This document shows positions 12,363 to 55,822 of a stretch of DNA of 64,000 bases, piece by piece. The notes below the pieces were generated by a model. The model made no database searches, was not told the origin of the DNA, and worked only from the letters and a program-made list of their open reading frames with translations. Both the position numbers and the translations under genes were made by a program. Source of the stretch: Acidimicrobiia bacterium (GTDB lineage: Bacteria > Actinomycetota > Acidimicrobiia > Acidimicrobiales > Aldehydirespiratoraceae); assembly GCA_022820805.1 (NCBI GenBank), contig JAJEEV010000041.1:1-64000 (forward strand), read 5' to 3'. Positions within the stretch are counted from its first letter, which is position 1; each line of letters begins with the position of its first letter.

Positions 12363-12436
12363 GGCGCCCTCCCGCTCCCCTCGATCTCAGATCGCCCGCG
12401 AACAGGTGAGAGCCTGTCGCCTTGCAGTGGTGTCAT
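12359..12436 (-). CDS. Micro-ORF in repeat copy A bridging rimM and trmD (25 aa)
   Basis: ATG at 12434-12436 overlaps the rimM TGA (ATGA). The frame runs 25 codons, begins MTPLQGDRLSPVRGRS and ends in TGA at 12359-12361, which overlaps the trmD GTG (GTGA). Both overlaps are of the type used for translational coupling. The peptide has no recognised domain, and its sequence may not matter; it is derived from the 137-bp element. Whether it is translated is inference. Confidence 0.4.
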   Translation of the reverse strand: MTPLQGDRLSPVRGRSEIEGSGRAP

Positions 12437-12526
12437 TCCCGCTCTTGTTGGCTGCGCTCACGGGCCGCTCGGGCCACGGCCTCGCGCCGTATGGGCCGCG
12501 CTGTCCCACCTTTTCGCTCGGCCTCT
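12391..12526 (-). repeat. 137-bp dispersed element, copy A (upstream of trmD, inside the 3' end of rimM)
   Basis: The conserved core (about 12434-12500) matches the other copies, with an AGAGGCCGAGCG end at 12515-12526. Other copies have a stop codon just before this end; here the codons are CCC AGA, so the rimM frame reads through the core and ends in the element's own TGA. Confidence 0.8.
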
Positions 12527-13074
12527 GGGCCGGATCCCTCGAAGAGCCCGTCGGGCACGTCCACGTCGATGCGCTCGCACGGCACCGAGGCCACCACGAA
12601 GCGCAGCGGCACGAGGGTCCCGTCGGCCAGCTCCAGCAGGTCCCCGGCCGGGTTGGCCACGACAGAGGCCACCGGGCCCCGGTCGACGCCGGACTGGTCC
12701 ACCACCCGGGCGCCGATCAGCTCATGCACCCAGGTCTCGTCGGGATCGTCGATGGGCGCAGCCTGAAGGACCAGGCCGCGCAGGCCCTCCGCCTTGCTGC
12801 GGTCGTCGATGCCCTCGAAGGCGACCAGATGCCGCTGGTTGTGGGGGCGGGCCGCAAGCACGCGCAGCACCCCCGCCGCGGTGTGCAGCTCCGATCCGGG
12901 CGCCAGGCGCTCGGGGCGGTTCGACACCAGCGTCACCGTCACCTCGCCGGCGGTGCCGTGAGGCCGGCCGACGCGGCCGATGTCGAGCAGGGGCCCGGCC
13001 GGGGCCCCGGCGGCGCCCGATGGCTCAGCGGCGGGGCTTCCAGTTGAGTGCTCCTCGCGTCGCAGCGGCGTCAT
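12433..13074 (-). CDS. rimM: 16S rRNA processing protein RimM with repeat-derived ends
   Basis: The product is 213 aa; RimM is usually about 165-180 aa. The body has LLDIGRVGRPHGTAGEV, the RimM N-barrel, and a PRC-barrel second half (VHELIGARVVDQSG, LVPLRFVVASV, IDVDVPDGLFE). RimM binds S19 and assists 30S head assembly. Both ends come from the 137-bp element. The start ATG and about 16 N-terminal residues lie in copy B. The last 34 residues (ending VARAARERSQQERE) lie in copy A, where the stop codon that normally abuts the element has been lost. The C-terminal tail is very basic and acidic, and probably a helix. Its stop overlaps the next micro-ORF. Confidence 0.93.
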   Translation of the reverse strand: MTPLRREEHSTGSPAAEPSGAAGAPAGPLLDIGRVGRPHGTAGEVTVTLVSNRPERLAPGSELHTAAGVLRVLAARPHNQRHLVAFEGIDDRSKAEGLRGLVLQAAPIDDPDETWVHELIGARVVDQSGVDRGPVASVVANPAGDLLELADGTLVPLRFVVASVPCERIDVDVPDGLFEGSGPEAERKGGTARPIRREAVARAARERSQQERE

Positions 13075-13162
13075 TCCCGCTCCTGTTCGCTGCGCTCACG
13101 GGCCGCTCGGGCCACGGCCTCGCGCCGTATGGGCCGCATCGTCGCCCATTCGCTCGGCCTCT
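13026..13162 (-). repeat. 137-bp dispersed element, copy B (between khpA and rimM)
   Basis: Begins, in the sense of transcription, as TAA-GAGGCCGAGCG at the khpA stop. It contains the common core (13071-13136) and the GCGGGAATGACGCCGCTG segment whose ATG is the rimM start. The distal arm is diverged. Confidence 0.8.
13071..13139 (-). CDS. Micro-ORF in repeat copy B whose stop overlaps the rimM start (22 aa)
   Basis: ATG at 13137-13139, 22 codons ending in REAVARAARERSEQERE, TGA at 13071-13073 overlapping the rimM ATG at 13072-13074 (ATGA). It begins 23 nt after the khpA stop. The peptide is the generic product of the element core. The overlap suggests ribosomes finishing it could reinitiate on rimM. 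Translation is unproven. Confidence 0.4.
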   Translation of the reverse strand: MRPIRREAVARAARERSEQERE

Positions 13163-13416
13163 TAGTCGACGAACTCGACCTCGATGTCCACATCGTCGCG
13201 CGATCCGGCCGCCCGCACCACGGTGCGGATGGCATGCGCGACCCGGCCCCGCTTGCCGATGACGCGGCCCATCTCCCCCTGGGCGACGCGCACGTCGAGG
13301 CGTACCGCTCCGCTGCCCGCGGGCGACGCGGTGACCTGCACGGCGTCGGTGTCGTCGACGATGCTGGTGACCACGTAACGGCACATGGCCTCGGCGGTGG
13401 GTGCCAGGTCGGTCAC
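13162..13416 (-). CDS. khpA: KH-domain RNA-binding protein KhpA
   Basis: The product is 84 aa with a single KH domain; the GXXG loop is IGKRGRVAHAIRTVVRAA. KhpA proteins bind RNA as dimers or with KhpB/Jag and affect cell shape and translation in Gram-positives. It lies between rpsP and rimM as in most actinobacteria. Its start overlaps the rpsP stop by 4 bp (ATGA). Its TAA stop directly abuts repeat copy B. Confidence 0.95.
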   Translation of the reverse strand: MTDLAPTAEAMCRYVVTSIVDDTDAVQVTASPAGSGAVRLDVRVAQGEMGRVIGKRGRVAHAIRTVVRAAGSRDDVDIEVEFVD

Positions 13417-13718
13417 TGGTCGCTCTCCGCAACGCTTGCTGCGGCGGTGCCGGGATTCCCGGTGCCGCGGAAGTCGTCCCAGGCCCCGCTGATCTTCAGC
13501 AGCTTCTCAACCCTCTCGGTCGGCTGGGCACCGTGGCGCAGCCAGTGCAGTGCCCGCTCGTTGTCGATCCGCACGACGGAGGGGTCCTGGCGGGGCTCGT
13601 AGATCCCGATGATCTCGATGAAGCGCCCGTTGCGGGGCGCGCGAGTGTCGGCGGCAACGACGCGGTAGGTGGGCTGCTTCTTCTTCCCCATCCGCATCAG
13701 GCGCAACTTGACGGCCAA
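13413..13718 (-). CDS. rpsP: 30S ribosomal protein S16
   Basis: The product is 101 aa. AVKLRLMRMGKKKQPTYRVV, FIEIIGIYEPRQDP and IDNERALHWLRHGAQPTERV are diagnostic. The start codon is TTG (13716-13718), supported by GAGG about 7 nt upstream in the minus strand. The C-terminal tail is Ala/Ser-rich. It overlaps khpA by 4 bp; both belong to the ffh-rpsP-khpA-rimM-trmD-rplS series. Confidence 0.97.
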   Translation of the reverse strand: MAVKLRLMRMGKKKQPTYRVVAADTRAPRNGRFIEIIGIYEPRQDPSVVRIDNERALHWLRHGAQPTERVEKLLKISGAWDDFRGTGNPGTAAASVAESDQ

Positions 13719-13756
13719 TTTGAATCCTCTGATCTCTTAGGCGACTCAACGAAGGG

Positions 13757-15223
13757 TCAATTGAACCCGGGCCAGTCACCCTTTTCCAACCCTGGGAGGC
13801 TCAGAGGCGCCTTGGAGGCCGGTGCCGGACCCTTGGGGGTGGTCCGGCCGCCGCTGCGTCGCTGGGACCCGGACCGCTGCTTGGCCCGCCCCGACTGCTT
13901 GGACGACCGGGCTCTCGATCCAGCGGGGGCCCGCTTGCCGCCGAGGCCTCCGAGTCCCTTCATCATCGACCGCATCTGCTTGAACTGGTCGATCAGCGAC
14001 TTCACGTCGGCCGGCCGGCAGCCCGAGCCGGCCGCGATGCGCTGGCGGCGGGACGCGTCGATGATGTCGGGATCGGCGCGCTCTGCGGGCGTCATCGAGT
14101 GGATCATTCCGGTGATGCGGCCGATGCGACTGTCGTCGATGTCGGCGCTGCGCAGCTCGCGGGGCACGCCGGGCATCATGCCGATGAGGCTGCGCAGGTT
14201 CCCCATGCCGAGCACCTGCTGCATCGTCGACAGGAAGTCGTCGAGGGTGAAGGTGCCCTCCAGCAGCCTGGTCGCGGTCTGTTCCGCCTGCTCGGCCTCG
14301 AACGCGGACTCGGCCTTGTCGATGAGCGTCTCGACGTCGCCCATCCCGAGGATGCGGCTCGCGAGCCGGTCGGGGTGGAACGGCTCGAAGTCGTCGAGCT
14401 TCTCCCCGACCGAGGCGAAGGCGATGGGCCGGCCCACCACCTCCTTGACCGACAGCGCCGCCCCGCCCCGGGCGTCGCCGTCGAGCTTGGTGAGGATCAC
14501 GCCGTCGAGGGCCAGTGACTGGTGGAAGGCCCGGGCCGAGTTGACCGCGTCCTGGCCGACGGTGGCGTCCACCACCAGGAACGTGTAGTCGGGCTTGACC
14601 GCCTTGGAGATGCGCCGGACCTGGTCCATCATCTCGGCGTCGATGGCCAGCCGGCCGGCGGTGTCGACGATCACCACGTCGCGCCCGGTGCGGGTCGCCT
14701 CGGCCAGCGAGGCCGACGCGGCCTTGACCGGGCTGCGGGAGTGGCTGAACACCGGCACGCCGACACGCCCGCCGAGGGTGCGGAGCTGCTCCACCGCGGC
14801 GGGGCGCTGCAGGTCGGCGCCCACCAGCAGCGGGCTGCGCCCCTGGCGCAAGAACCATTGGGCCAGCTTGGCCGCGTTGGTGGTCTTGCCTGTTCCCTGG
14901 AGTCCAGCCAGCAGCACCACGGTGGGCGGCTTCGACGCGTAGGTGAGGGCCAGCCGCTCGCCTCCGAGGCTCTCGGTCAGCTCCGACAGGACGATCTTGA
15001 CCACCTGCTGGGCGGGGTTGAGGGCCCGCGACAGCTCCTCGCCCACGGCGCGCTCGCGGATGCGGGCGGTGAGGTTCGAGACGACGTCGAGGTTGACGTC
15101 CGCTTCCAGGAGCGCGACCCGGATCTCGCTCAGCGCGGTGTCGACGTCATCAGCCGAGAGCCGCCCCCGCCCGCGGAGCTTCGTGAAGGCGGCCTCGAAG
15201 CGATCGGTGAGGGTCTCGAACAT
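13757..15223 (-). CDS. ffh: Signal recognition particle GTPase Ffh (SRP54)
   Basis: The product is 488 aa with the N, G and M domains in order. G-domain motifs include LAGLQGTGKTTNAAKLAQWF (P-loop), DTAGRLA and TKLDGDARGGAALS. The M domain (about 320-430) carries the RIxxGSG-type signature RIAAGSGCRPADVKSLIDQF. The C-terminus is a Ser/Arg/Lys-rich low-complexity tail. Ffh with 4.5S RNA binds signal sequences on ribosomes and docks with FtsY, encoded just upstream. TAGGGT sits 9 nt upstream of the ATG, so ffh probably has its own promoter downstream of repeat copy C. Confidence 0.97.
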   Translation of the reverse strand: MFETLTDRFEAAFTKLRGRGRLSADDVDTALSEIRVALLEADVNLDVVSNLTARIRERAVGEELSRALNPAQQVVKIVLSELTESLGGERLALTYASKPPTVVLLAGLQGTGKTTNAAKLAQWFLRQGRSPLLVGADLQRPAAVEQLRTLGGRVGVPVFSHSRSPVKAASASLAEATRTGRDVVIVDTAGRLAIDAEMMDQVRRISKAVKPDYTFLVVDATVGQDAVNSARAFHQSLALDGVILTKLDGDARGGAALSVKEVVGRPIAFASVGEKLDDFEPFHPDRLASRILGMGDVETLIDKAESAFEAEQAEQTATRLLEGTFTLDDFLSTMQQVLGMGNLRSLIGMMPGVPRELRSADIDDSRIGRITGMIHSMTPAERADPDIIDASRRQRIAAGSGCRPADVKSLIDQFKQMRSMMKGLGGLGGKRAPAGSRARSSKQSGRAKQRSGSQRRSGGRTTPKGPAPASKAPLSLPGLEKGDWPGFN

Positions 15224-15232
15224 GGCCGAGCC

Positions 15233-15238
15233 ACCCTA
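15233..15238 (-). promoter_or_regulatory. Predicted -10 (TAGGGT) of ffh
   Basis: TAGGGT followed by 9 nt and then ATG gives a very short leader. The same hexamer precedes uvrD, xthA and the SDR gene. Confidence 0.4.
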
Positions 15239-15265
15239 CCGAAGGCCCAACGCCGCGTCGCTCCG

Positions 15266-15285
15266 CCTATTCGCTCGGCCTCTTA
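15266..15285 (-). repeat. Solo 3' remnant of the 137-bp element next to copy C
   Basis: CCTATTCGCTCGGCCTCTTA matches the right terminal repeat of the element (15404-15422) at all but a few positions and abuts the left end of copy C. It looks like a tandem or older, deleted copy. Confidence 0.55.
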
Positions 15286-15422
15286 GGGGCCACGCGGATA
15301 GGTACGAGCCGGTCTCGGTGCAGCGGTGTCATTCCCGCTCTTGTTCGCTGCGCTCACGGGCCGCTCGGGCCACGGCCTCGCACCGTATGGGCCGGATTCG
15401 CGCACCTATCCGCTCGGCCTCT
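15285..15422 (-). repeat. 137-bp dispersed element, copy C (between ftsY and ffh); reference copy
   Basis: 138 bp. The left end AGGGGCCACGCGGATAGGT (15285-15303) is an imperfect inverted repeat of the right end ACCTATCCGCTCGGCCTCT (15404-15422), 16 of 19 positions. The core GGGCCGCTCGGGCCACGGCC lies between. The right end is fused to the ftsY TAA stop. The core carries a 21-codon micro-ORF starting at 15332 and ending at 15267, which is not in contact with ffh. Confidence 0.85.
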
Positions 15423-16507
15423 TAGTCGAACAGGGCGTCCACGAACTCCGTCTCGTCGAAGGGCACCAGGTCGGCAATGCCCTCCCCTACTCCGACGAGC
15501 TTCACCGGCACGCCGAGCTCGGTCTGCACCGACACGACTATCCCCCCCTTGGCGGACCCGTCGAGCTTGGTGAGGACCACCCCGGTGACGTCGACCGCCT
15601 CGGTGAACTGTCTGGCCTGGGCGAGGCCGTTCTGGCCGGTGGTGGCGTCGAGCACGAGCAGCGTCTCGGTGACGACGCCAGTCCCCCGCTCGGCCACCCG
15701 CCTCACCTTCTGGAGCTCGGCCATGAGGTTCTGGGAGGTGTGGAACCTCCCGGCGGTGTCGGCCATGACCAGGTCGGCGCCCCGGGCCGCGGCCGACTCC
15801 ACCGCGTCGAACACGACCGAGGCCGGGTCGGCCCCCTCCGCGCCCCGCACGATGTGGGCCGACGAGCGCTCCGACCACATGGCGAGCTGATCGGCGGCCG
15901 CCGCCCGGAACGTGTCGCCCGCGGCCAGCACGACCCGCGCGCCGCGGTCGGCCTCGCGCTTGGCCAGCTTGCCGATGGTGGTGGTCTTGCCGGTGCCGTT
16001 GACACCGACGAAGAGCCACACCGCCGGGCCTGCGCCGTCGTCTCGCCGGGCCAGCGAGCGATCGAAGCCTCCGAGGCGATCCCGCAGCTCGGACTTGAGC
16101 GCGACCACCGCCGGCTGCGAGCCGTCGGCGCCGGGCTCGACCCTGGCCCTGGCCGCGCTCACGATCTCGGAGCTGGTCGCCAGCCCGACATCGGCCCGGA
16201 TCAGGGCCTCGGTGACATCGGTCCAGGCCTCCTCGGAGCTCGAGGCCCGCTCCAGCGCCGAGGCCAGCGGCCCGCCCAGCGCCGCTCGCGCCTTCGACAG
16301 GCGGTCCCGCAGCGAGGTGCCCGTGACACCCGACTGGGCAGCGGACCGTTCGGCCACCCGGTCGACCACCCGGTCGGCGACATCGCCCGCGCTGGCACCG
16401 CTTCCGGACGCGGTGGCTGCCCTGCGCCTGCGCACGATCAGGACGGCGGCGGCCACGACTATGACCGCCAGCGCCACCAGGACGATGATGAGGAGGACCG
16501 GCGTCAT
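15422..16507 (-). CDS. ftsY: Signal recognition particle receptor FtsY
   Basis: The product is 361 aa. An N-terminal membrane anchor (about residues 4-25, LLIIVLVALAVIVVAAAVLI) is followed by Arg-rich residues, as in actinobacterial FtsY, then the N domain and G domain (VGVNGTGKTTTIGKLA, LAAGDTFRAAAADQL, MADTAGRFHTSQNLMAEL, LTKLDGSAKGGIVVSV). It receives the SRP-ribosome complex at the membrane. Its start overlaps the stop of the HtrA-like gene by 4 bp. Its TAA stop forms the junction with repeat copy C. Confidence 0.97.
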   Translation of the reverse strand: MTPVLLIIVLVALAVIVVAAAVLIVRRRRAATASGSGASAGDVADRVVDRVAERSAAQSGVTGTSLRDRLSKARAALGGPLASALERASSSEEAWTDVTEALIRADVGLATSSEIVSAARARVEPGADGSQPAVVALKSELRDRLGGFDRSLARRDDGAGPAVWLFVGVNGTGKTTTIGKLAKREADRGARVVLAAGDTFRAAAADQLAMWSERSSAHIVRGAEGADPASVVFDAVESAAARGADLVMADTAGRFHTSQNLMAELQKVRRVAERGTGVVTETLLVLDATTGQNGLAQARQFTEAVDVTGVVLTKLDGSAKGGIVVSVQTELGVPVKLVGVGEGIADLVPFDETEFVDALFD

Positions 16508-17925
16508 CCGAGGGAGTCCAGGATGGCGGTGACTATGTAGATCTCACCGCGGCGCGTGACCGTCAGCTCCACCGGCTCGCCCGGTCGGCGGAGCTTGATC
16601 GCGGCTGAGAGCTCGTAGATGTCGTACATGGGCTCGGAATCGATGCTAATGATCACATCGCCGGCGAGCAGTCCGGCCTCCTCGGCCGGCGAGCCGGGCA
16701 GGACCTTGGTCACCCTCACGCCCAGGTCTCCGTCCCCGGCGCCCCCCTCGATGCCGAGGTACCCGAGTTCCAGCGACTCCCCCCCGACGATGCGGGTGGC
16801 GATCAGGTCGACGGTGTCGCTGGGAACGGCGAAGCCGAGTCCGATGCTGCCCCCGGTCGTGGTCTGGATCATGGTGTTCATCCCGATGACCCGGCCCTGC
16901 GAGTCGGCCAGCGCGCCGCCCGAGTTGCCGCGGTTGATGGCGGCGTCGGTCTGGATCATCTCCACCGGCACCGGGGACGTCGGGTCGGCACCACCCTGGA
17001 CCTGGATCCGGACCGCGCTGACGATCCCGGCGGTGACCGTGCCGGCCAGCCCGAGCGGGCTGCCGATGGCCACCGCGAGCTGTCCCACCCGCACCGACGA
17101 CGCCGGCGCGAACGGGGCGGCCGTCAGCTCGGCCGCCGCCGGGTCGACCCGCACGACGGCCACGTCATGGGCCGTGGATCCTCCGATGACCTCGCCCTCC
17201 AGCCTTGCGCCGTCCGACAGGACGATGCCGACGGTGGCGGCGCCCTCGACGACGTGCTGGTTGGTCACGATGTAGCCGTTGTCGGCGTCCCACACGATGC
17301 CGGAGCCGAGGCCGAACCCGAACTCGGAGCTGGACTCGATCTCGACCAGTACCACCGAGGGGCTCAGAGCCTCCGCCACCGCGACCACCGGCTCGGCGCC
17401 GGCCGCGGGCTCGGTCATCTGCGGGGTGAGCCGCGGGAGTGCCTCCGGGGAGGGCTCAGCGCCTCCCGACCCAGCGGCCCGATCAGAAGGCAGGAGCTCA
17501 TCAACTCCGGCCCCGGGAAGACCCTCGTCGGCTCCACCGGCCCGTTCCACGCCGCTCGAGCCGGGGAGTTCGCCATCCGAGAGCGCCTGAGAGGCGGCCG
17601 ACGCGGCCTCCTCGGGCGAGGCCGGCCTGATGGACGGGGTGACGGCGCTGCCCCGCTCGCCCTCGGAGAGCACCAGGCCCGTCAGGGCCCCGGCCCCGGC
17701 GATCAGGGCGAACAGCACCAGCGCGGCCACGATCCGGCGCACCGGCCGGCGGCGCCCACCGCTCGGTGGGTGGGCGTCACCGGCGCCGTCCTCGGCGGGC
17801 CTCAGCACTGCAGTGGGGTACGAGCCGGGAGGCGCGACGGCGGGGCTGCCGCCGGGCGCGGGGGGACGATGCAGTGCGGGCGCGTTGGCAGGAAGGCGCC
17901 GGCGGACCGGATCACCACTCCGCAT
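16504..17925 (-). CDS. HtrA/DegP-like S1C serine protease with one PDZ domain, membrane-anchored
   Basis: The product is 473 aa. A Pro-rich cytosolic N-terminus of about 60 residues is followed by one transmembrane span (about 65-86) and an acidic Ala/Gly/Pro linker. The trypsin-like domain has the catalytic triad His224 (TNQHVVEGA), Asp254 (AHDVAVV) and Ser335 (NRGNSGGAL). A single PDZ domain follows (about 385-473). It is the type of extracytoplasmic quality-control protease found in mycobacteria (HtrA, PepD). It overlaps ftsY by 4 bp, linking envelope proteolysis to the SRP receptor transcript, an unusual insertion between ftsY and smc. TAGCTT lies 9 nt upstream of the ATG. Confidence 0.92.
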   Translation of the reverse strand: MRSGDPVRRRLPANAPALHRPPAPGGSPAVAPPGSYPTAVLRPAEDGAGDAHPPSGGRRRPVRRIVAALVLFALIAGAGALTGLVLSEGERGSAVTPSIRPASPEEAASAASQALSDGELPGSSGVERAGGADEGLPGAGVDELLPSDRAAGSGGAEPSPEALPRLTPQMTEPAAGAEPVVAVAEALSPSVVLVEIESSSEFGFGLGSGIVWDADNGYIVTNQHVVEGAATVGIVLSDGARLEGEVIGGSTAHDVAVVRVDPAAAELTAAPFAPASSVRVGQLAVAIGSPLGLAGTVTAGIVSAVRIQVQGGADPTSPVPVEMIQTDAAINRGNSGGALADSQGRVIGMNTMIQTTTGGSIGLGFAVPSDTVDLIATRIVGGESLELGYLGIEGGAGDGDLGVRVTKVLPGSPAEEAGLLAGDVIISIDSEPMYDIYELSAAIKLRRPGEPVELTVTRRGEIYIVTAILDSLG

Positions 17926-17996
17926 GGCGCTTACAAGCTATGGGGCAGGAGTGAGAGAATCGTGAGCGGGAGGCCAGTTGTGTCCGGATCGGCCTC

Positions 17997-21485: not shown

Positions 21486-21492
21486 GACCGCG

Positions 21493-21498
21493 ACGCTA
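21493..21498 (-). promoter_or_regulatory. Leaderless promoter -10 (TAGCGT) of smc
   Basis: TAGCGT followed by 7 nt and then GTG. The identical hexamer precedes the glycosyltransferase gene at 44475 with the same spacing. Confidence 0.5.
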
Positions 21499-21581
21499 GT
21501 TGGGGCCGCGTCCGACTCCGAGCATCCCCATGGCGGCACTCGCCGCCCGCTGGGAGGCGATCAGACCGGGCTAGGCGGCGA

Positions 21582-22442: not shown

Positions 22443-22476
22443 GTTCGGACCTCGACTTGTGATGGGGATTCGAGAC

Positions 22477-24569: not shown

Positions 24570-24704
24570 GAGCGGGCGCGGGTAGGCGCAGTCCCGTCGC
24601 GCTGCGAGGGGGTGTCTCCCGCTCTTGTTCGCTGCGCTCACGGGCCGCTCGGGCCACGGCCTCGCGCCGTATGCGCCGATCGCTCGCCGATCCGCTCGGC
24701 CTCT
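24570..24704 (-). repeat. 137-bp dispersed element, copy E (upstream of plsX)
   Basis: Right end GATCCGCTCGGCCTCT at 24689-24704, core at about 24612-24680. The segment that contains ATGA in other copies reads GGAGACACC here, so the core frame is not closed and continues in frame into plsX. It lies about 160 bp downstream of rpmF rather than on its stop. Confidence 0.78.
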
Positions 24705-29480: not shown

Positions 29481-29617
29481 CGTGCCCGGCGACAGGTGAG
29501 AGCCCGTCGTTCCGCAGCGGTGTCATTCCCGCTCTTGTTCGCTGCGCTCACGGGCCGCTCGGGCCACGGGCTCGCGCCGTTTGGTCCGGACTCGCTCACT
29601 TAATTCGCTCGCCCTCT
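29481..29617 (-). repeat. 137-bp dispersed element, copy F (between fakA and recG)
   Basis: 137 bp; in the sense of transcription it starts at the fakA TAA stop with AGAGGGCGAGCG. The core is at about 29521-29580 with a few substitutions, and the element's ATGACACCGCTG (ATG 29524-29526) is in frame with recG. Confidence 0.8.
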
Positions 29618-41404: not shown

Positions 41405-41481
41405 TAGAGATCCCGCTCTTGTTCGCTGCGCTCACGGGCCGCTCGGGCCACGGCCTCGCTCGGCATCTCGCGAAGACTCAT
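41404..41481 (-). CDS. Micro-ORF in repeat copy G whose stop overlaps the thiQ start (25 aa)
   Basis: ATG at 41479-41481, 25 codons including EAVARAARERSEQERDL, TAA at 41404-41406 sharing one base with the thiQ ATG (TAATG). It starts 25 nt after the thiP stop. Together with copies A and B it suggests the element places a translated micro-ORF directly on the next gene's start. No direct evidence of translation. Confidence 0.4.
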   Translation of the reverse strand: MSLREMPSEAVARAARERSEQERDL

Positions 41482-41507
41482 TGTTCACTCCGATCCGCTC
41501 GGCCTCT
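41411..41507 (-). repeat. 137-bp dispersed element, copy G (between thiP and thiQ; shortened)
   Basis: 97 bp. The right end GATCCGCTCGGCCTCT abuts the thiP TAA. The core is intact (41411-41459), but the segment between core and right end is diverged and the left arm is missing, so it ends 7 nt from the thiQ ATG. Confidence 0.78.
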
Positions 41508-45635: not shown

Positions 45636-45638
45636 TCC

Positions 45639-45662: not shown

Positions 45663-45673
45663 ATCGGCCTCTA
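45663..45673 (-). repeat. Element-like end at the LRR gene stop
   Basis: In the LRR sense strand the stop TAG is followed by AGGCCGAT, close to the AGAGGCCGAGCG end that follows other stops. Only about 10 bp, so chance similarity is possible. Confidence 0.3.
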
Positions 45674-48178: not shown

Positions 48179-48217
48179 CCGTGCCTCCTCGACACTCGCA
48201 GCTGGGAGAACAAGCGC

Positions 48218-48223
48218 AACGTA
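48218..48223 (-). promoter_or_regulatory. Possible -10 (TACGTT) of the LRR gene
   Basis: TACGTT lies 40 nt upstream of the start, leaving a leader of about 33 nt that carries GGAGG. The gap 48179-48292 holds nothing else supported. Confidence 0.35.
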
Positions 48224-48292
48224 CACACCGCGATCACCGCCGTCGCGGATCCGGCCGCCGACCGGGCCCCGATCCTCGACCGGTGCGGGCGA

Positions 48293-48637
48293 TCAGTCCC
48301 AGCCGAGTTGGTGCAGCGTGTCGTCGTCGATGCCGAAGTGGTGGGCGACCTCGTGGACGACCGTGACGGTGATCTCGTCGAGGAGCTCCTCCTCGCTGTC
48401 GCAGATCGCGCAGATCGCCAGCCGGTAGACGGTCACCCGATCGGGCATGGCCAGGCCGCCGTAGTCCTCACGCTCGGTGAGCGGCACTCCCTCGTAGAGG
48501 CCGAGAAGGTCCTCGTCGGGGTGGGTGTCCTCCACCACCACCGCGATGTTCTCCATCATCTCGCCCAGCGCGGGCGGCAGGGAGTCGAGAGCGTCGCCCA
48601 CCAGCCGCTCGAAGCGGGCCGCGTCGATCAGGTACAC
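48293..48637 (-). CDS. Zincin-like metallopeptidase family protein
   Basis: The product is 114 aa from a GTG at 48635-48637. The zinc motif is TVVHEVAHHFGI (HExxH), near the C-terminus, and the acidic VEDTHPDEDLLGLYEGVPLTERE is typical of this small bacterial family (Zincin_1/DUF1025). The third ligand is probably Asp or His in FGIDDDTLHQLGW. Physiological substrate unknown. It starts 6 nt after TACTGT, a leaderless arrangement. Confidence 0.88.
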   Translation of the reverse strand: MYLIDAARFERLVGDALDSLPPALGEMMENIAVVVEDTHPDEDLLGLYEGVPLTEREDYGGLAMPDRVTVYRLAICAICDSEEELLDEITVTVVHEVAHHFGIDDDTLHQLGWD

Positions 48638-48643
48638 CGCCTG

Positions 48644-48649
48644 ACAGTA
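48644..48649 (-). promoter_or_regulatory. Leaderless promoter -10 (TACTGT) of the zincin gene
   Basis: TACTGT followed by 6 nt and then GTG at 48637. Confidence 0.48.
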
Positions 48650-48676
48650 CCGGCCCGGCGATGGCCGGAGCCGCGG

Positions 48677-50578
48677 TCAGACGATGGCACCGCGGCCGTC
48701 GACATCGCCGAAGGGGTTGTCGCCGCGGATGGCGACCTGGGACTCGGGAACGTCCAGCAGACCGGCCAGATACGAGCGGGCATCGGCATGGAACGACCGC
48801 ACCGGATCCTGGCCGTGCAGCGGGTGCCCGCCGTCCCGCGCGAAGATCGTTCGGGACGCCCGGGTCCGGTCCTTGCCGTCCGAGCAGAAGAACTCGATGA
48901 CGCCGAGACCGCCGGCCCACACCGGCAGGAACGACACCCGATGGCCCTCCGAGCGGGCCGTCAGGACAGCCTGCTCCCACTCCTCGGTGGCCATGGCGGT
49001 GGCCTCCGCCAGGCCGGGGTACGAGTACCCGACCGCACCCAGGCGGCCTGACGCCTGCCGCCTTCCCATGAACTCGAGGAAGGAGCCGGCGCGGGGACCC
49101 TCCGGCCACCCGAAGAACACCGAGTACAGGGCGGTGAAGGCCTCGGACGGGTCGATCCCGACCAGACGGGCCGCGTCGAACAGCGCCCCCTGGATGGCGG
49201 CCGCATCCCATTCCTCGAGACCCGGCAGCAGTCTCGAGGCGACCGAGAGGAACGCCCGCTGGTGGTTAGTGAGCCGTCCGGCCTCGGGCTGGAAGTCCTC
49301 TATGACGGTCAGGCGCGCCGCCATCTCCGAGAATCGCTGCGACCACGACTCAGCGCTCCTGCGTTTGCGCTCGATCCACTGGCGCTCGACGGGCGACAGC
49401 GCCGAGCGTCCGACCGCCTCCAAGTGCTCGACGAGATCGATGTGGGGCTGCTGCACGACGCTGACCATCGTGTCGAACGGCGGGCTGTAGCCGGGGGACG
49501 GCGGGAGGCTGGCACCGGGATCGGGCTGCGAGAGTGCGAAGAGCTGCTGTTGCGCGGACCCGCTCTCGTCGACGGTGCGCCATAGGCGCTCGTACTCCGC
49601 GAACGCCCGCGTGACTCCGGCCACGTCGACCGCGAAGTCCACCGCCTTGCGGGGCTGGACTCTGAGGACGAGGTAGCGGAGCAGCTCCGGCGGCAGGACG
49701 GCCGCCAGCTCGCTGGCGGTGGAGCCGATCCCCTTCGACGAGCTCATCTTGGCGCCGGCAAGGGTGAAGAACTCGTAGCTGAACGAGACCGGCACATCGC
49801 AGGAGAGGACCTCTCGCGCCAGCGCGGCCGCCACCTTGTGCGACCCTCCGGCACCCATATGGTCCTTGCCGGCGCCCTCGAGCGACACCGCGAAGACCCT
49901 CCACTTGGCGGCCCATTCGAGCTTCCAGGGAAGCTTGCCGCGGCCGCCGAAGGGGCTCGTGCGCCCTCTCGTGCCGCAGCCCTCGGCCCAGTTGACGAGA
50001 TCGGCTCGACACTCGTAGGCGACGGTCTCACCGTCGTAGTCCGACGCGTAGGTCGTGCCGATGCGGCCGCACTTCTCGCAGATGGGCTGGAACGGCAGCC
50101 AGTCCGGCGACCGGATGCTGCCCGTCTCACGCCGGTAGATGTCCCTCACCTTGCCGGCGGCTCGAAGGTAGGCGTCGATCGTCTCGTCGAGCCGGCCCGA
50201 CCGGTAGACGTCGCTCATGCAGTAGAAGTCAGCCTCCACGCCGAGGGGACCGAACGTGGACGTGAACTCGCCAAAGTACGCCTCGGCCATGCTCCGGCCC
50301 GGCAGTCCGGGCGGGGGAGGCGCCCGGAACAGCGGCACGCCCAGGAACTCCCGGAAGTGCTCGCCGGTCCCGTGGGGTATCTCATCGACGGGATCCATGT
50401 CGTCGCAGCCGTAGATGAACTGAGCGGCCGTGCCGGTCTGGCGAGCCGCCCGGGCCAGGGCGTCGTGGATGAGAACGCCTCGCAGCGAGCCGACGTGGGC
50501 GAGGCCGCTCGGCGTCTTGGAGTCGTTGATCACCACCTGTGGCGGGCACCGGTCGAGGATCGCGTCAATCCAGGTCAT
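48677..50578 (-). CDS. lysS: Class I lysyl-tRNA synthetase with an extra C-terminal domain
   Basis: The product is 633 aa. Class I signature TPSGLAHVGSLRGVLIHD (HIGH-type) and KMSSSKG (in AGAKMSSSKGIGST) are present, with zinc-type cysteines ICEKCG. The catalytic and anticodon parts end near residue 505 with ALYSVFFGWPEGPRAGSFLEFMG, the usual C-terminus of class I LysRS. A further 128 residues follow (RRQASGRLGAVG ... FGDVDGRGAIV), including VSFLPVWAGGLGVIEFFCSDG and RSFHADARSYLAGLLDVPES, with no recognised domain. Reading frame and codon use continue smoothly. The enzyme charges tRNA-Lys. The start follows GAGGGG; TAGAGT at 50624-50629 is the likely -10. Confidence 0.92.
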   Translation of the reverse strand: MTWIDAILDRCPPQVVINDSKTPSGLAHVGSLRGVLIHDALARAARQTGTAAQFIYGCDDMDPVDEIPHGTGEHFREFLGVPLFRAPPPPGLPGRSMAEAYFGEFTSTFGPLGVEADFYCMSDVYRSGRLDETIDAYLRAAGKVRDIYRRETGSIRSPDWLPFQPICEKCGRIGTTYASDYDGETVAYECRADLVNWAEGCGTRGRTSPFGGRGKLPWKLEWAAKWRVFAVSLEGAGKDHMGAGGSHKVAAALAREVLSCDVPVSFSYEFFTLAGAKMSSSKGIGSTASELAAVLPPELLRYLVLRVQPRKAVDFAVDVAGVTRAFAEYERLWRTVDESGSAQQQLFALSQPDPGASLPPSPGYSPPFDTMVSVVQQPHIDLVEHLEAVGRSALSPVERQWIERKRRSAESWSQRFSEMAARLTVIEDFQPEAGRLTNHQRAFLSVASRLLPGLEEWDAAAIQGALFDAARLVGIDPSEAFTALYSVFFGWPEGPRAGSFLEFMGRRQASGRLGAVGYSYPGLAEATAMATEEWEQAVLTARSEGHRVSFLPVWAGGLGVIEFFCSDGKDRTRASRTIFARDGGHPLHGQDPVRSFHADARSYLAGLLDVPESQVAIRGDNPFGDVDGRGAIV

Positions 50579-50623
50579 GGCCCCTCGCCGTGGTTCCGCG
50601 CGCTGCCTTTGGAGCGGAGGGCA

Positions 50624-50629
50624 ACTCTA
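50624..50629 (-). promoter_or_regulatory. Predicted -10 (TAGAGT) of lysS
   Basis: TAGAGT lies 45 nt upstream of the start. With a 17-nt spacer its -35 would fall at 50647-50652, on the outer end of repeat copy H. Confidence 0.4.
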
Positions 50630-50645
50630 GCCCTGCGGAACGCCA

Positions 50646-50782
50646 AGAGGCCGAGCGAGTAGGCACGCCAATCCGGTCCATACGGGCGAGGCCGTGGCCC
50701 GAGCGGCCCGTGAGCGCAGCGAACAAGAGCGGGAAGCACAGCGCAGCAACCCGACGCGCTTGTCCCCACCCGCGCATGCTCT
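50646..50782 (+). repeat. 137-bp dispersed element, copy H (upstream of uvrD-like gene, inverted relative to the others)
   Basis: 137 bp, the only copy with the core on the plus strand, in the sense of the gene it precedes. Outer end AGAGGCCGAGCGAGTAGG; core at about 50677-50733. The distal arm is diverged. It occupies most of the 254-bp gap between divergent lysS and the helicase gene. Confidence 0.82.
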
Positions 50783-50823
50783 AGGGGCGGACCGCTGGAC
50801 GGCACGACCTGTCGCGATCGCCG

Positions 50824-50829
50824 TAGGGT
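50824..50829 (+). promoter_or_regulatory. Leaderless promoter -10 (TAGGGT) of the UvrD-like gene
   Basis: TAGGGT followed by 6 nt and then GTG at 50836, or 3 nt and then ATG at 50833. The usual spacing favours the GTG. Confidence 0.48.
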
Positions 50830-50832
50830 CCG

Positions 50833-52584
50833 ATGGTGGCCGACGCCGAACATCCACTGCTGGCCGGCCTGACCGTCGAGCAGCGTGACGCGGTGACGAG
50901 CAGGGCCTCTCCCATGTGCATCATCGCCGGGGCGGGCTCGGGCAAGACCCGGGTCCTCACTCGCCGCATCGCCTGGCAGGCCAGCGAGGGCCGGGCCGAT
51001 CCCCGGCGAACCCTGGCGGTGACTTTCACCCGGCGAGCGGCCCGCGAGTTGCGGGGCCGGCTGCGCAGGCTGGGCCTCAACGACGATGTGAGAGCGGGGA
51101 CGTTCCATGCGGTCGCGCTGGCGCAGCTCCGCCGCCACGCCGCAGACTCCGGCCGCCGCCCGCCCCGGATCCTCGACAGCGCCGGTGGGCTTATCGCCGA
51201 GCTGCGGCCCAGGGCCGACCGGGCCGCGGTGGCCGACATCGTCAACGAGATCGGCTGGTGCCGGGCCCGTCTCGTCGTGCCCGAGGAGTACCCGGAGGCG
51301 GCCCGGGCCGCGGGCCGGCGGCCGCCCGGGGGCCGTGTCGACCGCTTCGCCCAACTGTTCGCCGACTACGAGTCGGCCAAGGGCCGGCGCCGGGTGCTCG
51401 ACTTCGACGACGTGCTGGCCCGTTCGCTGGAGCTGATGGCCACCGAGCCCAAGCACGCGGCCGCACACCGCTGGCTCCACCAGCACGTGCTCGTCGACGA
51501 GTTCCAGGACATCAACCCGCTGCAGTTCGCCCTGCTGGAGTCGTGGCTGGGCCCGGACTCGACCCTGGTGGTGGTGGGCGACCCCGACCAGGCCATCTAC
51601 GGCTGGAACGGCGCCGATCCCGGCCTGATCGACGCGGTCGGCGAGCACCTGCGAGGCTGCGCGGTGCTGCACATGCGCACCAACTTCAGGTCCACGCCGC
51701 AGGTGCTGGCCGCAGCCGGAAGGGTCATGGACCGCGAGCCCCAGCCCGCGGTGCGGCCGCCCGGCGACGAGCCCACCGTGACCGTGTGCGACGGATCCGA
51801 GGAGGCCGCCGTGCTGGCCCGGGCGGTGAGGCATCGCCACCGGCCCGGCTCACGGTGGCGCCGCCAGGCGGTGCTGGCCCGCACCAACGCTCAGCTCGAG
51901 CCCCTGCGGCGGGCACTGGTGCGCCACGGTATCCCGGTGGCCGCTCCGAACGAGCGCAGCCTGATCCGGCGACCCGAGGTCGCGGCCCTGCTGACAGCGT
52001 GGCCCGCCGACGCGAGCCTCGCCTCCTGCACGGCCGAGACCGGTCAGCAACTGCGCGACCCCGACTCGGCCGCCACTGCCTCCGCCGGGACGCCGATCGC
52101 GGCCACCCCCGAGGCGCGGGCCGGGGTGGAGGCCCTCATGGAGTTCGCCAACGATCATCTGAGTCTGGATCCCGACTCCACCGTCGGTTCGTTCCGCACC
52201 GCGCTGCGGGCCGACGACCGCGCCGTCGCGCCCGTCGACGGCGTCGATCTCATGACCTTCCATGCAGCCAAGGGGCTGGAATGGCCCATCGTTCATGTTG
52301 TGGGCATGGAGGACGGGTTCGTTCCGATCGCCCACGCCCGAACCGCGACAGCCATGGCCGAGGAGCGCCGCCTGCTGCATGTGGCCGTCACCCGGGCCGA
52401 GCAGGAACTGCACGTGCTGTGGTGCGACCGGCGCGACCTGGGCGGCGAGAGCGTCGACCGGGAGCCCTCGCGTTGGCTGGAGATGATCGGGGCCTCGCGG
52501 AGCCCGGACGACGCCGAGTCCCGGAAGGCCCTGAACCTGAAGGGCGTGGCGCGAGCCCGCCGGGCGATAGCGGACCGGGATTAG
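50833..52584 (+). CDS. UvrD/PcrA-like superfamily 1 DNA helicase
   Basis: The product is 583 aa (582 if it starts at the GTG at 50836, as the TAGGGT promoter suggests). SF1A motifs in order: LTVEQRDAV (Q motif), AGAGSGKTRVLTRR (I), TFTRRAARELRGRL (Ia), VLVDEFQDINPLQ (II), VVGDPDQAIYGWNGA (III), NFRSTPQV (IV), VDLMTFHAAKGLEWPIVHVV (V) and LLHVAVTRAEQEL (VI). It is shorter than UvrD (about 700+ aa), with reduced accessory 2B sequence and no HRDC or Tudor domain. It probably acts in DNA repair. Its end overlaps the convergent antiporter gene by 4 bp. Confidence 0.9.
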   Translation: MVADAEHPLLAGLTVEQRDAVTSRASPMCIIAGAGSGKTRVLTRRIAWQASEGRADPRRTLAVTFTRRAARELRGRLRRLGLNDDVRAGTFHAVALAQLRRHAADSGRRPPRILDSAGGLIAELRPRADRAAVADIVNEIGWCRARLVVPEEYPEAARAAGRRPPGGRVDRFAQLFADYESAKGRRRVLDFDDVLARSLELMATEPKHAAAHRWLHQHVLVDEFQDINPLQFALLESWLGPDSTLVVVGDPDQAIYGWNGADPGLIDAVGEHLRGCAVLHMRTNFRSTPQVLAAAGRVMDREPQPAVRPPGDEPTVTVCDGSEEAAVLARAVRHRHRPGSRWRRQAVLARTNAQLEPLRRALVRHGIPVAAPNERSLIRRPEVAALLTAWPADASLASCTAETGQQLRDPDSAATASAGTPIAATPEARAGVEALMEFANDHLSLDPDSTVGSFRTALRADDRAVAPVDGVDLMTFHAAKGLEWPIVHVVGMEDGFVPIAHARTATAMAEERRLLHVAVTRAEQELHVLWCDRRDLGGESVDREPSRWLEMIGASRSPDDAESRKALNLKGVARARRAIADRD

Positions 52585-54806
52585 CCCGATCCGGCCCGGG
52601 GCATGGCCACGACCGCCACGTTGGCGCTGCACCGCTCCAGCACCGTCTCGACGGTATGGCCGAGGAAGGGGCGGCCGTCCACGTTGCGCAGCGACGCCCC
52701 CAGCACCACCAGGTCGGCCTGTTGCTCCTCAGCCGCCGCCACCAGCGTCGACGCCACCGATGAGCCCTCAGGCACGAGCGTGCGGGCGTCGATGCCCATC
52801 TCGGAGCCACGCGACCGGGCCGACTCCATGAGCGAGTCCACCACCTGGCGGGCCGACTCGTTGCGGTCCTCGCCCAGCACGCGGGTCGCCAGCCTGGTGC
52901 GGGCCAGCCGGGCCGGCACCATCCGCAGTTGCGGCCGCTGCCTCTGCACGACATGGGTCAGCACCACCTCGGTGCCGAGCTGGCCGCTGACGCCGAAGGC
53001 CACCTCCTGTGCAGCCCTGGAGGACCGCGTTCCGGTGACGGGCACGATGGCACGGGTGAAGGCTCCCGGCAGGGGCGTCTCCAGGTCGTCGGCCCGCCGC
53101 ACGATCACCACCGGCAGCGGCGAGTGCAGCAGCAGCTCGTCGACCATGGGCGAGTAGAGCTGACCCTCGTGGCGGCTGGCCACCCCAACGCATATCGCCC
53201 CGTAGCCCAGGCGGGCCTCGGCCACGATGGCTCCCGCGACCACCGCGCCGGCGCCGCTGGCCACCCGCACCTGCCGGTGGTCCACGTCGCGCCCATGGAG
53301 CACGTTGCGGATGATGGTGATGTCGGGCCAGCGCCCTGCGGCCCCGTCGGACCCGTAAGACGCGCCCGACCCGCTGTCGGCGGCCACCGAGATCACGGTC
53401 GCAGGCACCTGCACCGGCCAGGCGAAGTGCATCAACTGGGCGGCCGCGATGGATGCGGGCTCCGCCCTCGAGGGCAGCAGCAGCCTCGACGAGCGGACCA
53501 CCAGGTTGCGACTGAGAGCCTCCTCCCGCTCGAGGCGCTCCCGCTCGGCCGGCGACCCCATCCAGTCGCGCACCGCCAGCCGCAAGCTCACCGCCGCGAA
53601 CACCGACGTCACCAGGGGCACGATCACGATCACCGTGTAGGCCGTCTCGCTGAAGACCCCCAGCGACAGCCCCACCGAGGCGATCACGATCTCCAGCGCA
53701 CCCCGGGCGTTCAGCCCGGCGCCCAGCGCGATCGCAGCCCGCTGCGACTGCCCCGCCATCCTCGCCCCGACGAAAGCGCCCGCGAACTTGGCCACGATCG
53801 CCACCGCCATCACCGCGCCGGCCCAGGCCAGCGCCTCGCCCTCGCCCAGCAGCGAGAGGTCGACCCTGAGACCGGCCATGGCGAAGAACACGGGGGCCAG
53901 GAAGGAGTTGGTGAGCGACTCGATGTGGTGGACGACCTCGTGCTGCTGGAACCGGGAGCGGTTCAGCACCACGCCGGCCACGAACGCCCCCAGCACGGCC
54001 TCGATGCCCAAGGCTTGGGTCACCACGCCGAACAGCAGCATCGTGATGACGGCGATGCTCAGCGCGCCGTGCAGGTTGGGGCCGGCGCGGCGGATCCGGC
54101 GCAGGCTCGCGTCGACGGCTCGCTGGCCCAGCGTCATGGCCAGCGCCAGGAAGGCGGCCAGTCCCAGCACCGTCCGCAGCGTCCCCGAGACCGACACCTC
54201 GCCCGCGGAGGCGAATCCGGCGAACACGGCCAGCATCACCCAGCCGACCACGTCGTTGGCCATGCCCGCAGCCACCGTGATCTGCCCGAAGTCCCGCCTC
54301 ATGAGGCCCAGCTCCGACAGGATCCGAGCGATCACCGCCAGCGCCGACACCGACAGCGCAGCCGCGACGAACAGCGCGAACACCGTCCGGTCGGCTCCTC
54401 CGCCCACGAAATCGTCCGGCAGCAGCATGCCGGTGACCAGGCCGCCGGCCAGGGGCACCACCAGGCTGAACCCGGTCACCAGGGCAGCGGCCCGCCCGAG
54501 GCGCCGGATCAGTGCGAGATCGGTCTCGAAGCCCGCCGTCACCAGCAGCAGGGCCACCCCGAGCCAGCTCACCGCGAACAGTGCGCCCGAGGAGATCTCC
54601 TCGTGGGGCAGGAACCAGTCGAAGCCGCTGGGCCAGAGCTTCCCGAACACCGAGGGACCGAGGACCACGCCCGCAGCGAGATGGCCGATCACCGACGGCA
54701 GCCCCACCCGGCGCATGCCGTAGCCCGCGGCCCGGGCCGCGACCACCAGCACCAGCAGCTGGGTCCAGAAGACGAGCAGGGCGTGCTCGTCGAGCGGGGT
54801 CAGCAC
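52581..54806 (-). CDS. CPA2 cation/proton antiporter with C-terminal universal-stress-protein domains
   Basis: The product is 741 aa. Residues 1 to about 400 form a KefB/NapA-type exchanger with about 12-13 membrane spans (LPSVIGHLAAGVVLGPSVFG, ITVAAGMANDVVGWVMLAVF with the ND pair typical of the ion site, GAFVAGVVLNRSRF). The C-terminal part, from about 440 to 741, holds two UspA-like domains; the second (PVTGTRSSRAAQEVAF ... LVVLGASLRNVDGRPFLGHTVE) includes the nucleotide-binding GxxLR...GHTVE pattern. Such fusions couple K+/Na+ exchange to nucleotide or stress signals. The start is GTG with GGAGG upstream. Confidence 0.92.
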   Translation of the reverse strand: MLTPLDEHALLVFWTQLLVLVVAARAAGYGMRRVGLPSVIGHLAAGVVLGPSVFGKLWPSGFDWFLPHEEISSGALFAVSWLGVALLLVTAGFETDLALIRRLGRAAALVTGFSLVVPLAGGLVTGMLLPDDFVGGGADRTVFALFVAAALSVSALAVIARILSELGLMRRDFGQITVAAGMANDVVGWVMLAVFAGFASAGEVSVSGTLRTVLGLAAFLALAMTLGQRAVDASLRRIRRAGPNLHGALSIAVITMLLFGVVTQALGIEAVLGAFVAGVVLNRSRFQQHEVVHHIESLTNSFLAPVFFAMAGLRVDLSLLGEGEALAWAGAVMAVAIVAKFAGAFVGARMAGQSQRAAIALGAGLNARGALEIVIASVGLSLGVFSETAYTVIVIVPLVTSVFAAVSLRLAVRDWMGSPAERERLEREEALSRNLVVRSSRLLLPSRAEPASIAAAQLMHFAWPVQVPATVISVAADSGSGASYGSDGAAGRWPDITIIRNVLHGRDVDHRQVRVASGAGAVVAGAIVAEARLGYGAICVGVASRHEGQLYSPMVDELLLHSPLPVVIVRRADDLETPLPGAFTRAIVPVTGTRSSRAAQEVAFGVSGQLGTEVVLTHVVQRQRPQLRMVPARLARTRLATRVLGEDRNESARQVVDSLMESARSRGSEMGIDARTLVPEGSSVASTLVAAAEEQQADLVVLGASLRNVDGRPFLGHTVETVLERCSANVAVVAMPRAGSG

Positions 54807-54858
54807 TCCCGAGCCTCCGTCAAGACCGGCCCGCAGGCGGTTGCCGGGGTCACCGCGG

Positions 54859-55653
54859 TCAGCCCTCCCCGTCCAGGTCGAGATCGACGAACAGGGGCGC
54901 GTGGTCGCTGGGCGGATCGTCCTTCGGGCCCTTGCGCTCGTTGCGGTCGATGAGCGCGAAGCTGGCCGCCTCGGTCACCGAACGGGTTCCCAGCACGAGA
55001 TCGATGCGCATTCCCATGCGCTTGTGGAAGTTGCCTCCCCGGTAGTCCCACCATGTGAACAGCCCGGCGCCGGAGTGGTGCTCACGGAACACGTCGGCCA
55101 GTCCCCACTCGAGCAGGCTGGCAAGCCTGTCCCGCTCCGCCGCACTGGTGTGGGTGGTGTCGGTGAAGGCGTCGGGGTCGTACACGTCCCGGTCGTCGGG
55201 GGCGATGTTGAAGTCGCCGCACACCAGCGCCGCGGCCGCGGGATCGGCCTGGGAGTCAAGGGAGGCTCGCAGCCGGCCCAGCCAGTCGAGCTTGTAGTGG
55301 TAGTGATCGTGGCCTATGGAGCGGCCGTTGGGCACGTAGCACGACGCCACCCGGACACCGCCGCAGGTGGCCCAGGCCAGCCGGGCGTCGGGATCGGGGT
55401 CGATGCCGTCTCCGAATCCGGCAACCGGATCCTCCAACCCGACCCTGCTGAGCACAGCCACGCCGTTCCAGCGCCCCTCGCCGTGATGGAAGCAGTCGTA
55501 GCCGAGCGACTGGAAGGCCAGGGCCGGGAAGGCGTCGTCGGCCAGCTTGGTCTCCTGGAGGCACACCACATCCGGCGAGAACGACTCGATCCAGCGCTGC
55601 ACCCGGTCCAGGCGCGCCTTCAACGAGTTGACGTTCCAGGTGACGACCCGCAC
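54859..55653 (-). CDS. xthA: Exodeoxyribonuclease III
   Basis: The product is 264 aa. It has RVVTWNVNSLKARLDRVQRWI, VCLQETKLADDAFP (catalytic Glu), CGDFNIAPDDRDVYDP, TWWDYRGGNFHKRMGMRIDLVLGT and the closing PSDHAPLFVDLDL (Asp-His). This AP endonuclease/3' exonuclease acts in base-excision repair. The GTG start at 55651-55653 follows TAGGGT by 6 nt, between repeat copy I and the gene. Confidence 0.95.
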   Translation of the reverse strand: MRVVTWNVNSLKARLDRVQRWIESFSPDVVCLQETKLADDAFPALAFQSLGYDCFHHGEGRWNGVAVLSRVGLEDPVAGFGDGIDPDPDARLAWATCGGVRVASCYVPNGRSIGHDHYHYKLDWLGRLRASLDSQADPAAAALVCGDFNIAPDDRDVYDPDAFTDTTHTSAAERDRLASLLEWGLADVFREHHSGAGLFTWWDYRGGNFHKRMGMRIDLVLGTRSVTEAASFALIDRNERKGPKDDPPSDHAPLFVDLDLDGEG

Positions 55654-55659
55654 AGGCCG

Positions 55660-55665
55660 ACCCTA
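55660..55665 (-). promoter_or_regulatory. Leaderless promoter -10 (TAGGGT) of xthA
   Basis: TAGGGT followed by 6 nt and then GTG at 55653. Confidence 0.5.
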
Positions 55666-55685
55666 GCCCGACACACTCGCCCCGA

Positions 55686-55822
55686 AGGGGCCACGCGGAT
55701 AGGCGAGCGCCCGTCGCGCCACAGCGGTGTCGTTCCCGCTCTTGTTCGCTGCGCTCACGGGCCGCTCGGGCCACGGCCTCGCGCCGCATGGGCCGCATTG
55801 TCCCGCTATCCGCTCGGCCTCT
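55686..55822 (-). repeat. 137-bp dispersed element, copy I (between xthA and kgd)
   Basis: 137 bp with both terminal repeats well preserved: left AGGGGCCACGCGGATAGG at 55686-55703 and right CGCTATCCGCTCGGCCTCT at 55804-55822. The core ATGA segment reads ACGA here, so the micro-frame is not closed. The right end meets the predicted -35 region of the divergent kgd promoter. Confidence 0.85.

Follow-up and report, generated by a model that had tools for sequence, protein, structure and literature searches.

A 137-bp repeat of an Acidimicrobiia genome looks like a miniature element of the IS5 family and carries a folded module that may serve elsewhere in the class as a translational leader

Results

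The 64,000-nucleotide (nt) stretch of DNA analyzed here, which we call the window, occupies positions 1 to 64,000 of contig JAJEEV010000041.1 in a draft genome of an Acidimicrobiia bacterium (GCA_022820805.1, G000 below; 3.4 Mb, 53 contigs, 94.8% complete, 71% GC) and contains eight copies of a 137-bp repeat with inverted ends and a common core. All eight lie where an earlier note, made from the sequence alone, had placed them, and they were the sole window matches above the HMMER inclusion threshold (E values from 2e-49 to 1e-32; next match, 4.4) for a profile built from these same eight copies. As had been noted, seven measure 135 to 138 bp and one 97 bp. Because the genes next to seven of the copies are on the minus strand, we describe the element on that strand, as TNA-GAGGCCGAGCGGATAGG ... 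core ... CCTATCCGCGTGGCCCC-TNA.

The best-preserved copy, copy C (15285..15422, minus strand, as are all the features named here), lies between ftsY and ffh. It is preceded by a TAA target repeat (15422..15424) that doubles as the ftsY stop codon and opens with the left terminal repeat GAGGCCGAGCGGATAGG (15405..15421), which includes the 5' arm of a helix, P1 (15412-15419). The P1 3' arm GCGAGGCC (15374..15381) is followed by an invariant linker, GTGGCCCGAGCGGCCC (P2; 15358..15373), the P3 hairpin GTGAGC-GCA-GCGAAC (15343..15357), a Shine-Dalgarno-like tail, AAGAGCGGG (15334..15342), the right terminal repeat CCTATCCGCGTGGCCCC (15286..15302), and the right TAA target repeat (15283..15285); a second left-end fragment (15266..15282) comes directly after the copy.

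Upstream of trmD, the open reading frame (ORF) of RimM (12433-13074) ends inside copy A (12391..12526, minus strand, with the structured strand also minus). Copy B (13026..13162, minus), in which the right end was not recognized, adjoins at its left end the TAA stop of a preceding small gene, presumably khpA-like, and provides rimM with AGGAG and with its called ATG start (13074); both termini of RimM may thus derive from the repeat. Copy D (24570..24704, minus), upstream of plsX, has TCA flanks on both sides, and copy E (29481..29617, minus) separates a YloV-like gene from recG. The shortened copy F (41411..41507, minus) retains the left end, spacer, and core only and lies between thiP-like and thiQ-like genes, the thiQ-like ATG following its GAGCGG by 8 nt. 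Copies H (50646..50782, plus) and I (55686..55822, minus) lie between divergent genes, lysS and a uvrD-like gene in the first case and xthA and a 2-oxoglutarate dehydrogenase E1-like gene in the second. The names trmD, rimM, ffh, plsX, recG, and xthA passed the NCBIfam cutoffs, whereas thiQ and uvrD, as named in the earlier note, stayed below the equivalog cutoffs; the former encodes an ABC ATPase, with the gene of a thiamine-type binding protein nearby, and the latter a UvrD/PcrA-like helicase. The stop codon of the preceding gene falls within 1 nt of four of the eight copies.

It had been proposed that the core always reads in the sense of the gene that follows. The relation between core and gene direction is indeed consistent in the window, but the core as then written is on the plus strand in seven copies whose genes are on the minus strand, and in copy H both strands are reversed (core minus, gene plus), so that this core is antisense there too. 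Nor does the count of eight of eight hold, since the copies at 50646 and 55686, being between divergent genes, match one neighbor either way; six copies are informative (two-sided P = 0.03). Across the genome, a 27-base core pattern with up to three mismatches occurs at 139 places (64 forward, 75 reverse; control, 0). We analyzed the context of 118 core copies in 471,148 bases around the listed copies (the last contigs and weaker copies being undersampled), using a simple purpose-made gene finder that called 93% of the window coding. These copies comprised 38 tandem-sense, 26 tandem-antisense, 23 convergent, and 18 divergent cases, with 3 inside genes and 10 at contig edges. The tandem counts, which had been named in advance as a refuting test, show no significant bias (P = 0.17), and a genome-wide orientation rule was rejected: outside the window there were 32 sense and 26 antisense copies (P = 0.51), against 6 and 0 within it. 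The orientation bias of the window does not extend to the genome. Full copies were 24 sense and 21 antisense, and shortened copies were 14 and 5 (P = 0.06). Several contigs (e.g., C1, C3, C8, C12, C13, C14, C15, and C28) begin or end in or near an element; the assembly therefore probably breaks at the repeats, and copies are undercounted.

The anatomy of the copies is that of a miniature inverted-repeat transposable element (MITE): the element is short, has no transposase gene, and has imperfect terminal inverted repeats. Of the 118 copies, 76 have both ends and measure 132 to 138 bp (about 136 bp), 37 fell short of a full-length call (both constant blocks survive in most, and contig ends truncate some), and 5 have other lengths. 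Identical 3-mers flank 26 of the 84 copies with both ends called, compared with 6.9 after shuffling (maximum, 16 in 2,000 shuffles), and the target-site duplication has a fixed length of 3 bp. TNA stands on both sides in 28 of these 84, with the left 3-mer being TNA in 40 and the right in 46. Of 65 left ends, 30 lie within 1 nt of the stop codon of the gene before, and of 42 right ends of full copies, 14 lie as close to a converging stop: insertion into the TNA of a TAA or TGA codon regenerates that stop. The earlier claim of targeted placement thus stands with TNA sites and stop codons as the targets, for the left and the right end of the element alike, and falls for the upstream-in-sense rule in G000.

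Empty sites were found in the relatives recovered through Ffh, which are Acidimicrobiaceae/Acidimicrobiia draft genomes. The best of them (locus L042; Ffh, 95% identical) has no insert at the sites of copies A (the rimM-trmD junction), B, and C, and loci L043 to L045 lack copy C. A diverged core was seen in L044 (4573-4671; Ffh, 86% identical) at the same pre-rimM junction as copy B. The repeat itself was present in 24 of 61 genomes, among them G000 and all 15 other genus members sampled.

Candidate partners of the repeat occur in sister genomes. PF01609 transposases gave 20 matches in 9 of the other genus genomes among the 16 searched, and none in G000. Two of the 20 belong to IS5 elements of 954 and 955 bp (L194 and L198) in genomes G001 and G012, with ends, GAGGCCGCGCGGGTAGG and CCTACC(C/A)GCGCACGCTC, that are similar, not identical, to those of the MITE; at 141.9 and 146.6 bits, their transposases exceed the cutoff of 110 for NF033580 (IS5 family), and one of the two elements is flanked by TTA on both sides. 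One MITE copy in genome G002 (L220) carries exactly the right end of L194. In a set of 25 genomes the transposase was present in 7, G000 not among them, and was often broken or partial. The folded module of the MITE has no match to the interior of the insertion sequence (IS) beyond the ends. Together, the ends, TNA repeats, empty sites, and similar-ended IS5 elements make the 137-bp repeat look like a MITE of an IS5-family IS; the anatomy is established from the sequence, and movement in trans would be the corollary.

Aligned copies have two constant blocks, AGAGGCCGAGC and a 47-nt core, with a variable spacer between them. The module at the center consists of P1 with tandem G-A pairs, the invariant GUGGCCCGAGCGGCC, the P3 hairpin with a GNA triloop, and the GAGCGG tail. 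P1 pairs GGCCGAGC with GCGAGGCC, the tandem G-A being in midstem, and the arms GGGCGAGC/GCGAGCCC of copy E represent a compensated pair change. In 199 copies, in which the end motif rather than pairing served to locate the 5' arm, P1 had 35 doubly changed paired cells, compared with 3.2 after shuffling (maximum, 11 in 2,000 shuffles). For the three-helix structure, an alignment of 42 sequences chosen to cover distinct variants gave 37 doubly changed cells versus 8.2 (none of 500 shuffles reached the count; the shuffles ignore relatedness), and slid controls gave at most 16. P2 is nearly invariant, with no doubly changed pair in the alignment, and the linker hardly varies among 234 units that were retrieved with three mismatches in it allowed. 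P3 is the most variable helix; for its test, stems were placed by fixed geometry in the 64 distinct middles of 16 or 18 nt, and the remaining 12 of the 76, which differ in length, were dropped. Loops were GNA in 59 of the 64, and P3 was fully paired in 23 of 29 and 12 of 35 middles, against 5.4 and 1.3 after shuffling, the latter count rising to 30 of 35 (shuffled, 9.3) when G-A pairs were allowed. The center is, on this covariation, a structured module, and the earlier description of the repeat as "MITE-like or an RNA element" finds support in both halves.

A covariance model found the module in 38 of 395 genomes of the class and 22 of 183 genera, G000 included; its E values are rough, and the weakest matches, near 4e-4, may be chance. 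Of 396 genomes from across the phylum, 2 had the exact pattern, each a member of the window's own family, and a reversed control matched once in another genome; the pattern is strict, missing genome G168 (one model match, E = 3.6e-6), and absence outside the class is not to be read from it. Rfam 15 gave no window match at the gathering score, and copy C, searched at E values up to 10, gave one match (E = 1.5; 12.5 bits versus a gathering score of 50), so a known RNA family was rejected. No T-run after the core was seen in the copies read, no terminator scan having been made.

The module also occurs without recognizable inverted ends. From ten genomes in which no such ends were noticed, we took all exact-pattern matches, merging tandem arrays, and obtained 44 sites: 27 tandem sense, 11 divergent, 3 convergent, 2 antisense, and 1 at an edge. 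The upstream-in-sense rule, which fails in G000, holds for these related copies in distant genomes, a sense downstream gene being present at 39 of the 44. GAGCGG lies 0 to 12 nt before a called start at 31 of the 44 sites, mostly at 5 nt, compared with 3 of 300 other GAGCGG occurrences in the same loci (overlapping loci not merged) and 3 of 118 copies in G000. The test for 15-base inverted repeats around the module was positive at none of the 44 sites and for 20 of 111 G000 copies. A mini-ORF ending at the gene start was found at 18 of the 44 sites, 16 of them with the stop at +1 of the start (xTGA); the mini-ORF opens with ATGA or GTGA at 14 of the 18, against a background of 17 xTGA among 52 called starts in the window. 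In genomes G181 and G263, units are repeated in tandem about every 92 nt. In G041, of another family, the first seven copies read are all in sense between codirectional genes, with a stop-to-start distance of 52 to 85 nt in six; the junctions include what we take to be kdpF-kdpA, korA-korB, and nuoI-nuoJ (names assigned from the sequences, with no family search). The same genome has two more tandem-sense copies and one between divergent genes.

Such placement is rare in G000, where the three copies at called starts are window copies B (rimM) and F (thiQ-like) and one tandem pair without recognized ends on contig C15. Of this kind is the tandem core without recognized ends at locus L019 (1298-1402), which ends 6 nt before an ATG and shows the leader placement beside the MITE form. 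L144 (C17: 36379, 36471, and 36563) has three shortened copies in tandem with 92-bp spacing. Five other genomes, a mixed group sorted by eye as end-bearing (G043, G060, G074, G169, and G264), gave 11 tandem-sense, 5 antisense, 12 convergent, 3 divergent, and 9 edge cases among 40 sites (not all matches). One core copy in G169 (L254) seems by eye to supply the coding sequence for the C terminus of a gene product, and loci L412 to L418 of that genome seemingly show both placements, with many convergent copies having a GTGAAC-type P3 and some copies with another stem directly before starts.

These distributions bear on two other explanations. If the repeat were an ordinary IS5 MITE, its center would be mere interior, alike from copy to copy by recent spread, and its closeness to genes would be incidental. 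Its anatomy and the lack of orientation bias in G000 agree with that, but the stems are compensated across families, the center is also met at start codons with no recognized inverted ends around it, and shortened copies keep the center while losing the right end; we consider this explanation unlikely. The module might, instead, be a cis-regulatory RNA, a riboswitch or protein-binding leader exerting signal-responsive control of downstream genes; its conserved stems, invariant linker, Shine-Dalgarno-like tail, and sense placement in the ten genomes speak for this. Such a role is difficult to reconcile with the lack of relation among the downstream genes, with the tandem arrays and high copy number, and with the copies that are antisense in G000, as it is with the Rfam result, and it appears improbable to us.

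Discussion

We favor, at a probability of about 70%, the view that two nested things are present: an IS5 MITE as the vehicle and, as its cargo, an older, class-wide folded translational leader. In our reading, a mobile leader resembling the mycobacterial interspersed repetitive units (MIRU) became the cargo of an IS5 MITE in the lineage of the window. The vehicle would be a nonautonomous MITE moved in trans by an IS5-family transposase, inserting at TNA, preferably between C and G (C-TNA-G), with duplication of three bases; in a gene-dense genome of 71% GC, stop codons would offer tolerated TNA sites, which would leave copies of either orientation in gaps and where genes end. Elsewhere in the class, the cargo would stand alone at start codons, in sense, and act there as a translational leader. 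Its mini-ORF, running through the hairpins, would end at an ATGA or GTGA overlapping the start of the gene, and its tail (GGAGCGG in many) would be a Shine-Dalgarno sequence about 8 nt upstream of that start; ribosomes would thus reinitiate on the gene, and insertion would be nearly harmless, as has been proposed for MIRU. What let the leader spread may be that a gene stays translated when the insertion is at its start codon, and capture by the IS5 MITE may have shifted targeting from start codons to TNA sites, by which the orientation bias would have been lost. The stems and the leader placement are established at the sequence level, and ribosome reinitiation is what they suggest; we likewise infer an origin by insertion for the leader copies and an ancestral leader form that the MITE later captured.

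Several observations weigh against this view. On the side of the vehicle, 58 of the 84 copies lack identical flanking 3-mers, the flanks of L194 differ (TAA/TAT), the similarity between IS and MITE is confined to the ends (about 20 bp on the left by BLAST), and no IS5-type transposase was found in the 94.8% complete draft of G000, where mobility is thus putative. On the side of the leader, the ten genomes were picked after their flanks and some contexts had been viewed; 3 of the 44 sites are convergent and 2 antisense, no called start follows the tail within 0 to 12 nt at 13, and 26 have no mini-ORF by our rule. A looser test (any ORF of 60 codons) is passed by 34 of the 44 sites but also by 67 of 300 controls; in the five genomes sorted by eye as end-bearing it is passed by 7 of 39. 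The inverted-end test is itself weak, being positive at 2 of 35 sites in those five genomes, and separates leader and MITE forms less cleanly than assumed. As for the fold, the core alone does no better than shuffles by folding energy (z scores of 0.46, 1.42, 0.37, and 0.60 for both strands as RNA and DNA), core plus block 1 as RNA gives a z score of -0.71, and the good folding of full copy C (z = -5.0) is as expected of terminal repeats. Energy models give little credit to tandem G-A pairs; the structural case rests on covariation, not on energy. Some core variation, finally, looks synonymous, leaving room for a coding component.

The last point raises the alternative that selection acts on an encoded peptide, either a tail resembling ARAARERSEQER or a mini-protein. 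By eye, some core variants are synonymous in one frame; also by eye, however, the reading frame differs between genomes with the length of P3 (13, 15, or 16 nt), and changes in the stems replace amino acids two at a time. Many copies are also antisense to their neighbors, and we regard this alternative as very improbable. Another is that the fold matters as single-stranded DNA, the hairpins being the recognition site of a transposition enzyme and translation only a filter of tolerance. DNA hairpins with GNA triloops and tandem G-A pairs are very stable; both features are present here, and xTGA stands at both ends of 14 leader copies. Against this, the core does not fold as DNA better than shuffles, and a Y1-type transposase (PF01797) was found in none of the 16 genus genomes, the leader genomes not having been searched for such an enzyme; we judge the idea possible but doubtful. 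That same result led us to reject a REP/RAYT system for the genus. A broader proposal, which we put forward only tentatively and would not bet on, is that the leaders form a new class of mobile element across the bacterial class, with a folded single strand as the mobility signal and strand-specific insertion at start codons with their own mini-ORF and Shine-Dalgarno sequence, and that in the genus of the window this element was swallowed by an IS5 MITE and reached more than 100 copies.

Short repeats in bacteria tend to be dismissed as junk or classed as terminators. In the present case, comparison across genomes separates an orientation-blind vehicle, the IS5 MITE, from a cargo with conserved folding that elsewhere sits before start codons. 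To our knowledge, what moves MIRU-like elements is unsettled; the present repeat offers a tractable case for that question and for how mobile sequence enters operons without silencing genes. We found no description of the element in the literature searched, as judged by titles and the openings of abstracts.

By its terminal repeats, its TNA repeats, often with C and G beside them, and an IS5-family DDE transposase, here in sister genomes, the vehicle resembles IS5-family MITEs and would be a new member of them. NuwaII elements, of a related eukaryotic superfamily, are described with C-TNA-G targets (PMC4482050); they are eukaryotic, whereas the MITE here is bacterial and carries a conserved folded module. 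The ERIC, Correia/NEMIS, and RUP repeats are MITE-like intergenic bacterial sequences of about 100 to 170 bp with RNA structure and ORF fusions, and the portion of that account available to us mentions for them no class-wide core that also exists without ends at start codons (PMC2229807). The present element differs from REP/RAYT in size, in its ends, and in that no Y1 transposase was found in the genus. REP/RAYT sequences are likewise dispersed extragenic hairpins. MIRU occur in tandem arrays, as do the leader units. According to one account, they are short repeats, thought to be mobile, that insert at start codons and carry within them an ORF that is coupled at -4 nt to the gene (PMC12548453). 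The likeness lies in sense placement at start codons (31 of 44 leader sites) and perhaps in ORF coupling (xTGA, 16 of 44). The window repeat as a whole does not share this placement, with 3 of 118 G000 copies at called starts. The whole would nevertheless work like MIRU in placement and coupling, differing from them in its covarying P1 and P3 and in having been carried, in one lineage, inside an IS5 MITE.

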